From the NCBI GenBank assembly GCA_945892765.1, contig CAMDDQ010000004.1, forward strand, positions 1-61,333: 61,333 nucleotides of DNA. Reading direction: 5' to 3'. How positions within the stretch are numbered: position 1 is the stretch's first letter; every line of letters begins with the position of its first letter. The notes beneath the pieces are model-generated. The model made no database searches. It saw only the letters and a list, made by a program, of their open reading frames with translations, and was not told where the DNA came from. Shown here piece after piece: positions 44,895-49,520 of this stretch. The position numbers and the translations under genes are program-made. The DNA is from Asaia bogorensis (GTDB taxonomy: Bacteria; Pseudomonadota; Alphaproteobacteria; CACIAM-22H2).

Positions 44895-46217
44895 TTACCG
44901 GCTCGGCAACGCGAGGTTGCCGACCGGATAGTTGGACACGATCGTACGCGCGCGGGCGTGATAGTTGGCGAGTGCGGTTTTTGCGGCTACGCGGTTGCCT
45001 GCGCGGGCCAAGTCGAGAATGGCGCTCATGTCACCGATCAACTGCGCGGAAACGACGCGAACGTCCGGCACATCGGCAGGCAACCTTCCGCCGAATTCGG
45101 CGCGAGTGTCGAAACGCCAGCCGATCCAATTCAAATCGAAATTGACGGTCTCGACGACCAACCCGATGGCCGCGAGGTCGTTGGCCTCGATTGCGTGGTC
45201 GAGCACCGAAACATAGGTCGAGACTTCCCGCATCGCGGCTTGCCGCGTGACCGGTTCATAGCTTCCTTCACCCGCGCTGACGGCATCGAGATAGGCGACG
45301 AGGTCTTCGGTCTCCTCGGGCCTCAGCTTGAGCGAAAAGACGCGATCGAAATGTTCGACGACCTCGAGAAAGCTGGTGTAGCGCCCATCGTGGAAATAGG
45401 GCGCGGTCAATCCGGCATTGATCAGCGTGGGCGTTTTGAAAAGACCGTTGGAACCGACATCGTGGCGGCGGCCATCGGCGAACAGGGACTCCGGAACGTG
45501 GCAGTTCGCGCAAGATTTTCCGTCCATGCCGGCAAACGGCTTAACGAAAAGGGCCTCGCCGCGTTTGGCCGCTGGGTCGGCCGATGAAGCAAGGCGGCCG
45601 AGCCTGTTGAGCTTCGAGTTGGGCAGAAAGTCGATTTGGTCCATATACGCGACCAGCGCGTCGAGAACGCGAGGCTCCGGTTCGGGCCCGGCGAATTCGT
45701 TGACGATGACGTGGCGCGCGAATTCGCGGAGAGAACCGATGCGCCCGTCGCGTCCATAGGGCGCGAGGAAGCGGATGCCGCGCAGGCTTGGGATGTCGAC
45801 GTGGTTGGCGACGCCGTCATCCTGAACCGGATTGAAGAAACCATTGGTGGGATCAAGTCCGCCGCGATGGGCGGAGATGCCCGGGATAAAGAATCTGGCG
45901 TTGATATCGCCTTGTCGGTGGCAGGAGTCGCAGGACAGTCCCGCTTCTTTCGCCTTTTCACCGAAGAGCGTCGGCGAACTGAACGCCGCGTTGCCAAGGG
46001 CGACCATATAGGATTGCCGCCCGCCTTCGGCTTCGCTCTTGAGAATTTGGCGCGGGCGTTCGCGGGCGTCGAGACCGAAATCCGTTCCCTTCGGCAACCC
46101 GGCGATGGTTTGGGCGCGCGCCGCCGGCGCGACGAATGCGGCCAATGCTGCGACCACCAAAAACCCAGCCACTTCCAGCCGACGGCTTCGGCACCGCGTC
46201 GCGAATGAATTCAGCAT
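44895..46217 (-). CDS. Secreted di-heme cytochrome c peroxidase-like protein
   Basis: Signal peptide; CXXCH motifs CDSCH and CANCH; FKTPTLINAGLTAPYFHDGRYTSFLEVVEHF. Confidence 0.85.
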   Translation of the reverse strand: MLNSFATRCRSRRLEVAGFLVVAALAAFVAPAARAQTIAGLPKGTDFGLDARERPRQILKSEAEGGRQSYMVALGNAAFSSPTLFGEKAKEAGLSCDSCHRQGDINARFFIPGISAHRGGLDPTNGFFNPVQDDGVANHVDIPSLRGIRFLAPYGRDGRIGSLREFARHVIVNEFAGPEPEPRVLDALVAYMDQIDFLPNSKLNRLGRLASSADPAAKRGEALFVKPFAGMDGKSCANCHVPESLFADGRRHDVGSNGLFKTPTLINAGLTAPYFHDGRYTSFLEVVEHFDRVFSLKLRPEETEDLVAYLDAVSAGEGSYEPVTRQAAMREVSTYVSVLDHAIEANDLAAIGLVVETVNFDLNWIGWRFDTRAEFGGRLPADVPDVRVVSAQLIGDMSAILDLARAGNRVAAKTALANYHARARTIVSNYPVGNLALPSR

Positions 46218-46261
46218 CGTGTCCCCGGTATGGTTCGTCGCTGGAGGATCAGGCGAACGGT

Positions 46262-46672
46262 CTAGGTCCGGCCGCCGACGGCAAACAGATATATCGCATA
46301 GAGGCCTGTCAGGATAAGGACGAGCCAAGTCAAGGACGTGCCCGCGACCCGGCCGAAACTTGCGCCGCTGGTGGAAACCAAACCTTGGGCGTGAAGCAAG
46401 CAACCAGCGAACAACGCGGCGCCCAAGACATGAACGGCAAGGCTAGGGGCGCCGACGATTTCGATGATGCCCAGAAGAACGAGCGCCATCGGGACATACT
46501 CGGCGTTGTTGGCATGTGTGCGGATGGTCTGCAACATCTCGGCATTGCCGCCATCGCCGGCAAGGATATTGAGGCGCGAGCGGGTCATCGTGACGCGGAT
46601 GGCGAGTATCGTGGCGAGAAGGCCGTTGAGCCCCGCGTAAAGCGCCGTAATAAGAGGTGCGTGCTGCATCAT
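46262..46672 (-). CDS. MAPEG family membrane protein
   Basis: MMQHAPLITALYAGLNGLLATILAIRVTMTR..IRTHANNAEYVPMALVLLGIIE.. four TMs. Confidence 0.9.
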   Translation of the reverse strand: MMQHAPLITALYAGLNGLLATILAIRVTMTRSRLNILAGDGGNAEMLQTIRTHANNAEYVPMALVLLGIIEIVGAPSLAVHVLGAALFAGCLLHAQGLVSTSGASFGRVAGTSLTWLVLILTGLYAIYLFAVGGRT

Positions 46673-46905: not shown

Positions 46906-48828
46906 ATGAACCTTCATGTAAGGGATAAGCAACGCCAATCCGCAGCGGGCAAGCTCGCCGCGACGCCCCTTCCCGGCTTGACTCCCGAACTCGCCGCGTT
47001 GCTGGGCCGGGCGCCCAAGGTCACGACCTCGGCCAAGCGCGAAGTCTTGATCGAATTGGCCCTGGGCGGGGCCGGGAACGACACCTACGACGTTGTGTAC
47101 GAGGTTCCGGGCAAGGGCGCTGTCACTGAGGCCACGGTCGTGCGCTGCCGGAACGGCTTGGCCGTTAACTACCCCGATCCTAGAATGCGGCGGCGCGATC
47201 CCGATTGCATGGTCATCGCCGATGATGGCCCGACCGACAAGCCGCAATTCAAGGATCGCTTCGGCATCGGATTCGATGGGTTGCGCAGCGAGATTCTGGC
47301 CTGGCTAGAGCGCCAGGAATTGATTGTGTTGCCCTTCCGCGCCGGCGGAAACCTGATTGGATATGACGCCCTGCTCGTGGCTCCGGCCAATGCCGCTTTT
47401 TTCGCGGCCGCGCTCGGCGACCTGCAAGGGAAGATACCCGGCGGTGACGTGCCCGCCGATTTTTCGCCGCGAGCGGTGATCTATCTCGCGCCGCCCTTCC
47501 GCCATACGCATTGCAAGGGCGAGCAGATCGTTGTCCATAACCGGGCAAAGGGCCTGCACGAGATATTCTCTTTGAATCTCTATCCGGGCCCCAGCGCCAA
47601 GAAGGGCGTGTACGGGGTGCTGCTGTCGATCGGCGAGACCGAAGGCTGGCTGACGGCCCATGGCTCGGTCGTTCAGGTCGTCACACCCTACGACAACGTC
47701 GTCACGATCATGCACGAAGGGGCGAGCGGCAGCGGCAAGAGCGAAATGCTCGAATATCCACATCGGGAGTTCGATGGGCGCTTGCTGCTCGGGGAAAACG
47801 TGGTCACCAAGGAGCGCCGCCGCATCGTTCTTAACCAGGGGTGCGAGCTGCGTCCGGTGACCGACGACATGGCGCTCAGCCACCCGTCGTTTCAGGGACA
47901 AAGCGGCAAGCTTCAGGTTTCGGACGCCGAAGATGCATGGTTCGTGCGTGTCGACCATATCGACCATTACGGCGTCGATCCGCATCTCGAACGCCTGACC
48001 TTGCATCCACCGAAGCCGCTGATCTTCCTCAATCTCGACGCCGTCGCCAATTCGAGTTGCCTGATTTGGGATCACGTCGAGGATGCGCCCGGCAAACGTT
48101 GCCCCAATCCTCGGGTTATTCTCCCGCGCGCCGCGGTGCCCGGGATCGTCGATGGGCCGGTGGAGGTGGATGTGCGTAGCTTCGGCGTACGCGCGCCGCC
48201 CTGCACACTCGAGAATCCGACCTATGGCATTTTCGGATTGATCCATTTTCTGCCGCCATCACTGGCCTGGCTGTGGCGGCTGGTGTCGCCGCGCGGCCAC
48301 GCCAATCCCAGCATTATCGGGGGCACCGGCCTCTCCAGCGAAGGCGTCGGTTCCTACTGGCCTTTCGCGACCGGCCGGCGCGTTGACCAAGCGAATTTGC
48401 TGCTCGGTCAGATCCGCTCGACCCCGCGCACGCGCTTCCTTTTGTTCCCCAACCAGCATATTGGCGCCTGGCGCGTCGGCTTCATGGCGCAGTGGATCGG
48501 GCGTGAATACATCGCCCGCCGCGGCGGCGCCAAATTCCGGCCAGACCAGCTCGTGCCGGCGCGTTCGGCGCTGCTGGGCTACGCGCTCCGCCATATGCAG
48601 GTCGAGGGCACCGTGATCGGGCATTGGTTCCTCGAGACCAACACCCAACCCGAGGTAACGGAGGAAGGCTACGACGCCGGCGCGCTCCAGTTGGTCGATT
48701 TTTTCCGCCGCGAGTTGACGCCTTATCTCGACGAGGCCGACCTTGATCCGACCGGACGCGACATCATCCGATGCTGTCTCGAAGGCGGTGCGCTGGCCGA
48801 CTACGAAAGCCTGTTGCCCTCTGCCTAG
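46906..48828 (+). CDS. 640-aa protein with HPr-kinase/PEPCK-like P-loop (possibly DUF4914)
   Basis: P-loop MHEGASGSGKSEMLEYPH (residues ~270-285) and downstream LRPVTDDMALSHPSF (D320-D321). Confidence 0.65.
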   Translation: MNLHVRDKQRQSAAGKLAATPLPGLTPELAALLGRAPKVTTSAKREVLIELALGGAGNDTYDVVYEVPGKGAVTEATVVRCRNGLAVNYPDPRMRRRDPDCMVIADDGPTDKPQFKDRFGIGFDGLRSEILAWLERQELIVLPFRAGGNLIGYDALLVAPANAAFFAAALGDLQGKIPGGDVPADFSPRAVIYLAPPFRHTHCKGEQIVVHNRAKGLHEIFSLNLYPGPSAKKGVYGVLLSIGETEGWLTAHGSVVQVVTPYDNVVTIMHEGASGSGKSEMLEYPHREFDGRLLLGENVVTKERRRIVLNQGCELRPVTDDMALSHPSFQGQSGKLQVSDAEDAWFVRVDHIDHYGVDPHLERLTLHPPKPLIFLNLDAVANSSCLIWDHVEDAPGKRCPNPRVILPRAAVPGIVDGPVEVDVRSFGVRAPPCTLENPTYGIFGLIHFLPPSLAWLWRLVSPRGHANPSIIGGTGLSSEGVGSYWPFATGRRVDQANLLLGQIRSTPRTRFLLFPNQHIGAWRVGFMAQWIGREYIARRGGAKFRPDQLVPARSALLGYALRHMQVEGTVIGHWFLETNTQPEVTEEGYDAGALQLVDFFRRELTPYLDEADLDPTGRDIIRCCLEGGALADYESLLPSA

Positions 48829-48860: not shown

Positions 48861-49520
48861 GTGGAGTCCCGCGTGCATCCCGAACTCTGGCGCCTGGAGC
48901 CGATGAGCCGCGAATTCGGCGGCGACCGCGGCACGCCGCTTGATCGCTACTATATCGAAGGATGGCTCGCGCGAAACGCGATTGACGTGCGCGGCCGCGT
49001 GCTTGAAGTCGGCGACAACATCTACACGCGCCGCTTCGGCGGGCGTGCCGTCGCCATGAGCGATGTCGTCTATCTGAAGCCAGGCAAACCGGGCGTGACC
49101 ATTGTCGCCGATCTGCGCGATGGGCCGGCTATTCCGTCGCGGGCGTTCGACTGCGTCATCCTGACCCAAACGTTGCACTTGATCGACGATATCAAGGCGG
49201 TGTTGGCGACGGTTCATCGAGTGCTCAAGTCGGGCGGCGTATGCCTGGCATCCCTGCCGGGAATCTCACAGATCAGCAGTTACGATGCCGCGCGTTGGGG
49301 AGATCATTGGCGGTTCACACCGCATTCGGCGCGAAAATTTTTCTCCGAGGCGTTTGTGGGCGGCGTGGTATCCACGGAGTCCATGGGAAATGTGTTGAGC
49401 GCTTGCGGATTCCTTCAGGGCCTCGCCACGCACGAACTGACGCGCGTCGAACTCGACTTCAACGATGCCGACTATCCGTTGGTCATTGCCGTGCGCGCCG
49501 CAAGGAACGCCCTCGCCTAG
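48861..49520 (+). CDS. Class I SAM-dependent methyltransferase
   Basis: GRVLEVGDNIYTRRFGGRAVAMSDVVYLKPG; FDCVILTQTLHLIDDIKAVLATVHRVLKSGGVCLASLPG; GTG start with AAAGGAG upstream. Confidence 0.85.
   Translation: MESRVHPELWRLEPMSREFGGDRGTPLDRYYIEGWLARNAIDVRGRVLEVGDNIYTRRFGGRAVAMSDVVYLKPGKPGVTIVADLRDGPAIPSRAFDCVILTQTLHLIDDIKAVLATVHRVLKSGGVCLASLPGISQISSYDAARWGDHWRFTPHSARKFFSEAFVGGVVSTESMGNVLSACGFLQGLATHELTRVELDFNDADYPLVIAVRAARNALA

Follow-up and report, generated by a model that had tools for sequence, protein, structure and literature searches.

The window analysed here, a stretch of 61,333 nucleotides of Asaia bogorensis DNA, encodes a 640-residue protein of the family DUF4914, which is almost certainly a full-length relative of phosphoenolpyruvate carboxykinase (PEPCK), an enzyme of central metabolism; the relationship is well supported by predicted fold and profile comparison. 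Judging from its conserved sequence and its structural model, the family would form a fourth PEPCK lineage that interconverts PEP and oxaloacetate, a reading with a probability of roughly 60%. Maps of the PEP-pyruvate-oxaloacetate node are based on gene lists, so that a PEPCK concealed by a DUF label would alter which organisms are presumed capable of making oxaloacetate or PEP. If the reading is true, the organisms affected include Thermotoga maritima, a model thermophile, and Candidatus Accumulibacter, known from wastewater treatment. Cultured organisms are among the carriers of DUF4914.

Family assignment and predicted fold

The open reading frame is single and intact, with an ATG start and zero internal stops, as the preliminary description, made from the sequence alone, had claimed. 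The suspicion voiced there that the product belongs to DUF4914 was confirmed by a Pfam scan, in which PF16260 matches end to end (E 3.1e-299, residues 26-636, profile positions 2-611 of 612) with 993.8 bits against a curated cut-off of 25.7, making the protein a full-length member of the family. No match other than DUF4914 was found in Pfam and NCBIfam, and no paper naming DUF4914 was found among 5.4 million open-access papers; some members may carry automatic "PEPCK" names in databases. A homologue scan with one genome per species returned 373 relatives, 80 of which were kept. These come from about a dozen phyla and share 58-68% identity with the window protein (96% for the protein of the sister genome), so that the family is, in terms of sequence, unusually conserved. 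In the sister gene (L003:8001-9920, + strand), TGA stands at residue 624, close to the C terminus, where most members have a Cys codon, and the frame stays conserved past it up to the next stop; a nonsense mutation late in the gene would explain this, as would, with lower likelihood, a codon for selenocysteine.

An alignment of 55 DUF4914 sequences from many phyla was used for the conservation analysis and as input for an AlphaFold2 model, which has a mean pLDDT of 89.6. Compared with solved structures by Foldseek, the predicted model matches the PEPCK two-domain fold over the whole chain, with E. coli ATP-PEPCK (1aq2, E 1.8e-23) at the top and TM-scores on target length of 0.74-0.78. Each of the 50 matches listed is a PEPCK, whether ATP-, GTP- or PPi-dependent, and they include crystal structures of E. 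coli PEPCK mutants at R65, Y207, G209, K212, K213, K254 and D269.

Identity to PEPCKs is 13-17%, and sequence searches therefore hardly detect the relationship. Neither PF01293 (ATP-PEPCK) nor PF00821 (GTP-PEPCK) matches the window protein at E 1, the family profile finds no match to the PPi-PEPCK chains 6k31 and 8e1u at E 10, and the sole match below E 1 in an hmmsearch of this profile against the PDB is a Thermus ATP-PEPCK (E 0.019). By sequence, the family is placed outside all three known PEPCK families. Profile-profile comparison is more sensitive to the link, with E 7e-6 over 471 co-linear columns for ATP-PEPCK and E 5e-4 for GTP-PEPCK, against a best E of 0.14 for reversed-sequence controls and unrelated families. 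Compared with each other in this way, with six sequences per family, the known homologues ATP-PEPCK and GTP-PEPCK match at E 0.075, more weakly than DUF4914 matches either, and on these profiles DUF4914 lies between the two types. From this position, it can help to reconstruct the divergence of the PEPCK types.

The likeness differs from type to type. With ATP-PEPCK (PckA, EC 4.1.1.49) DUF4914 shares the position of the active-site lid, although it is about 100 residues longer, has GKSE in place of GKTT and carries an insert before the DD motif. With GTP-PEPCK (EC 4.1.1.32), which has a similar length, it shares the EGW..H motif, a related DD region (GDDIAW in GTP-PEPCK, VTDDMA in DUF4914) and the N-x-R motif (HPNxRF and CPNPRV, respectively), whereas the P-loop reads GASGxGKSE in DUF4914 and PSACGKTN in GTP-PEPCK.

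PPi-PEPCK (PEP carboxytransphosphorylase, EC 4.1.1.38) shares the fold, and a smaller, pyrophosphate-dependent analogue of this enzyme would be a sub-case of the fourth-lineage reading, the confidences of the two overlapping. Among the structural matches, 8e1u and 6k31 alone exceed E. coli PEPCK in coverage of the query (TM normalised to query length 0.68-0.73, compared with about 0.64, at a high rmsd of 8-10). A PPDK-sized PEP-utilising enzyme is encoded in 38 of 39 DUF4914 genomes, the only genomes in which it was counted, and Thermotoga has both PPi-PFK and PPDK (PMC3561251). However, PPDK is widespread in these phyla in any case, and the PPi-PEPCK chains, besides lacking a sequence match, have about 1,110-1,130 residues, so that DUF4914 is about half their length. 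Dependence on pyrophosphate is judged unlikely.

Conserved active site

The preliminary description had pointed to a P-loop in VTIMHEGASGSGKSEMLEYPHREFDGRL (residues 265-292) followed, about 40 residues later, by an Asp pair in CELRPVTDDMALSHPSF (residues 313-329). The arrangement is not due to chance, since the protein matches the family profile end to end. The distance from the P-loop Lys to the first Asp is 42 in the window protein (K278 to D320) and exactly 42 in 81 of 82 DUF4914 members. In the compared enzymes, the same spacing is 14 (ATP-PEPCK L083) and 20 (GTP-PEPCK L089). Conservation of the P-loop Lys and Ser and of the DD motif had been set as a test beforehand, and all of them are invariant in the 55 sequences, together with the remaining P-loop positions (G272, A273, S274, G275, G277, K278, S279, E280, and D320 and D321 in full) except residue 276, which is either G or S and gives GASGSGKSE (residues 272-280) in the window. 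The motif PPFRHTHCKGE (residues 196-206) and the HDH-rich flank (VDHIDHYG, residues 349-356) are likewise present as described.

Table 1. Features of the DUF4914 gene in the window, with their proposed PEPCK counterparts
Feature	Position	Strand	Basis
DUF4914 protein, 640 aa, predicted PEPCK-fold enzyme	46906..48828	+	ORF; PF16260; AlphaFold2; Foldseek
R95-R96-R97-D98; R96 corresponds to E. coli PEPCK R65 (oxaloacetate/CO2 site)	47188..47199	+	Invariant; ATP-PEPCK profile alignment
Y226, corresponds to E. coli PEPCK Y207	47581..47583	+	Invariant; ATP-PEPCK profile alignment
K232-K233, correspond to E. coli PEPCK K212-K213 (Mn ligand Lys)	47599..47604	+	Invariant; aligned column for column with ATP-PEPCK
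H252, corresponds to E. coli H232 and GTP-type H264 (Mn ligand)	47659..47661	+	Invariant; ATP- and GTP-PEPCK profile alignments
P-loop G272-A-S-G-x-G-K278-S-E280 (kinase-1)	47719..47745	+	Invariant except residue 276 (G or S); aligned to GLSGTGKTT of ATP-PEPCK
Insert specific to the family, about 25-28 residues, separating P-loop from DD (residues 284-316)	47755..47853	+	Lys-to-DD spacing
D320-D321 (kinase-2), correspond to E. coli D268-D269	47863..47868	+	Invariant; aligned to GDDIAW of GTP-PEPCK
N401-P-R403, corresponds to GTP-type N403-x-R405 (HPNARFTAP), perhaps E. coli R333	48106..48114	+	Invariant; GTP-PEPCK profile alignment
Presumed mobile active-site lid, residues 461-484	48286..48357	+	Low model confidence; ATP-PEPCK lid register

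Beyond what the preliminary description had noted, the positions that make up the PEPCK active site, namely R65, Y207, K213, H232 and the N-x-R motif, also appear to have counterparts in DUF4914 (Table 1). The roles of R65, Y207, K212-K213, H232 and K254 are established in E. coli PEPCK; K254 aligns with K278 in the ATP-PEPCK profile alignment. R96, Y226, K232-K233, H252, N401 and R403 are all invariant in the 55 sequences. For the substrate-side residues R96, Y226 and N401/R403, the PEPCK register is taken from profile alignments only: the match of R96 to R65 comes from a single one, and the register of N-x-R agrees with GTP-PEPCK and is shifted by 5 relative to ATP-PEPCK. In the predicted metal site, K233, H252 and D321 are both invariant and aligned with Lys213, His232 and Asp269. 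The lowest internal confidence of the model falls in the blocks covering residues 461-480 (pLDDT 72 and 68), a stretch that the profile alignment places opposite the ATP-PEPCK lid AGTERGVTEP.

With such a site, a divalent metal would probably be bound by K233, H252 and D321, and the P-loop would hold the phosphoryl donor or acceptor, for which ADP/ATP, GDP/GTP and Pi/PPi are candidates. The conserved active site suggests the reaction oxaloacetate <-> PEP + CO2.

The P-loop itself also recalls HPr kinase/phosphorylase (PF07475), which shares a GxxGxGKSE P-loop followed by DD, and the Ser-Glu after the Lys in GxSGxGKSE is the form of that enzyme, whereas GKTT or GKTN stands at this place in the PEPCKs used for comparison. 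HPr kinase/phosphorylase has no PEPCK lobe 1. In DUF4914, the lobe-1 residues of PEPCK are conserved, the PEPCK fold extends over the whole chain, no HPr kinase appears among the 50 Foldseek matches listed, and PF07475 (Hpr_kinase_C) does not match at E 1. The earlier label "HPr-kinase/PEPCK-like" thus stands in its PEPCK half, while identity as HprK is not supported by fold or Pfam; a protein kinase of HPr-kinase-like type is very improbable.

Alternatively, DUF4914 could be a kinase or (de)carboxylase with the PEPCK fold but a different substrate, for example another 2-oxoacid or a bicarbonate-derived phosphate, in which the PEPCK machinery has been kept for handling metal and phosphate. The strong family-specific invariants RRRDPD, FRHTH, HRExDGR and PNQHIGAW and the insert of 25-28 residues ahead of DD point in this direction, and the new active-site environment formed by the first three motifs could mean a different substrate. 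However, the substrate-side positions that mark a PEPCK (R65, Y207, N-x-R) appear to be retained too, and another substrate is considered improbable.

Genes adjoining DUF4914

In the window, DUF4914 is surrounded by housekeeping genes (leuS, holA, lepA, pheS/pheT, rplT and mnmG), among which no gene explaining its role was found. The methyltransferase at 48861, proposed in the preliminary description as a partner, is a recurrent neighbour of DUF4914 in no genus but the window's own, and the partnership was not upheld. Upstream, on the opposite strand (44895-46403), lies a gene for a MauG/MbnH-like di-haem cytochrome c peroxidase, which matches known equivalogs only partially.

In several other lineages, the neighbours are of a different kind. 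The Na+/bicarbonate transporter SbtA is found near DUF4914 in 4 loci, beta-carbonic anhydrase in 4, and PurK and/or PurE, which are bicarbonate-using purine enzymes, in 12; several of these genes lie directly downstream, for example 13 bases away in L071. At least one of them occurs in 16 of 82 DUF4914 loci from at least 4 phyla (in L016 the PurK gene is 7.6 kb off, and in L025 the carbonic anhydrase is only a fragment), compared to 0 of 60 control loci from the same genomes (0/41 PPDK/PtsI and 0/19 canonical PEPCK). The difference gives a Fisher p of 9e-5, which treats related loci as independent and applies to neighbour families chosen after their recurrence had been seen; many DUF4914 loci end at contig edges and control loci are longer on average, a bias against the finding. 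The lineages concerned include Clostridia, Verrucomicrobiota, Planctomycetota and Pseudomonadota, and the neighbourhood changes at least 11 times on the tree, which means that it was not inherited as a single block.

Based on this company, DUF4914 may be an unrecognised CO2-handling enzyme. Canonical PEPCKs carboxylate in some fermenting bacteria, and the neighbouring genes for bicarbonate supply favour the same direction in the lineages that have them: the most likely reaction would be PEP + CO2 -> oxaloacetate, with an anaplerotic role, a step that is less firmly indicated than the reaction itself. That DUF4914 is a dedicated carboxylating enzyme is weakly supported and somewhat short of an even chance. 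In the majority of loci, including that of the window, DUF4914 has no bicarbonate gene close to it, which also counts against the fourth-lineage reading as such. P-II/SbtB-like proteins adjoin DUF4914 in a few loci as well, as might be expected of a catalytically dead PEPCK homologue serving as a CO2 or metabolite sensor; given that the catalytic residues are invariant across many phyla, such a sensor is highly unlikely.

Two recurrent neighbours were excluded from the bicarbonate-gene count: DUF3360, because its function is unassigned, and MpsC, a candidate that was dropped because it is dispensable for MpsAB bicarbonate transport in S. aureus (PMC6689103). In 9 loci (L037, L044, L042, L033, L051, L030, L005, L076 and L082), a gene with the MpsC domain (PF10057) is close to DUF4914, a distribution that requires 5 or more changes on the tree. 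DUF3360 recurs in clusters of PurE, PurK and DUF4914 in Clostridia (L037:9897-11204, L033:2758-4089, L030:6332-7714, L063:3554-4921 and L051:4933-6312) and might, by its company, be a bicarbonate transporter. One kind of LysR regulator (MEWLNYHHLRYFWTVAKEG), mostly on the opposite strand, is found near DUF4914 in Verrucomicrobiota, Omnitrophota and Rhodocyclaceae (L016, L052, L075, L078, L035, L023, L021 and L070) and is a candidate regulator of it. In L055 (3947-4756) and L081 (9910-10794), a conserved protein of 270-295 residues that matches nothing in Pfam or NCBIfam is encoded directly downstream of DUF4914; in L055 it is followed by carbonic anhydrase.

Occurrence of DUF4914 and of canonical PEPCKs

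DUF4914 is sparsely distributed. It was found in 2 of 399 genomes of the window's phylum, in 3 of 161 genomes of the phylum of an Anaerolinea genome and in 2 of 61 genomes of the Accumulibacter family, and among 61 relatives of the window's genome it is restricted to that genome and its sister. The only carrier among 14 control genomes is Thermotoga maritima, in which profile searches found no ATP-PEPCK, GTP-PEPCK or PEP carboxylase domains; no pepck is listed for three Thermotoga species (PMC3561251).

Among the 39 DUF4914 genomes, 11 have ATP-PEPCK, 19 have GTP-PEPCK and 9 have neither; in two of these nine, the draft genomes G414 and G426, PEP carboxylase and pyruvate carboxylase/OadA were not found either. 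The presence of a canonical PEPCK in 30 of 39 genomes speaks against the fourth-lineage reading and fits an enzyme with another substrate. It means that DUF4914 is not a simple PEPCK replacement, and this coexistence argues for a distinct role. Replacement was also considered for the window's genome and rejected: neither canonical PEPCK is present in this genome or its sister, but the same holds for nearly all of their relatives within the family, where DUF4914 is absent, and the lack of a canonical PEPCK therefore proves nothing there. The window's genome contains a PEP carboxylase fragment and PPDK-type genes.

Taken at its widest, the fourth-lineage reading would make DUF4914 a PEPCK family serving mainly anaplerotic CO2 fixation from PEP in many phyla, coupled to SbtA uptake and carbonic anhydrase, possibly storing energy as PPi, and perhaps filling the missing PEPCK of Thermotoga and of some small-genome lineages; as a whole, this picture is tentative and rather doubtful. 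In the DUF4914 tree, the phyla are intermixed, a pattern that suggests transfer, and the window protein groups with alphaproteobacterial and Chloroflexota members.
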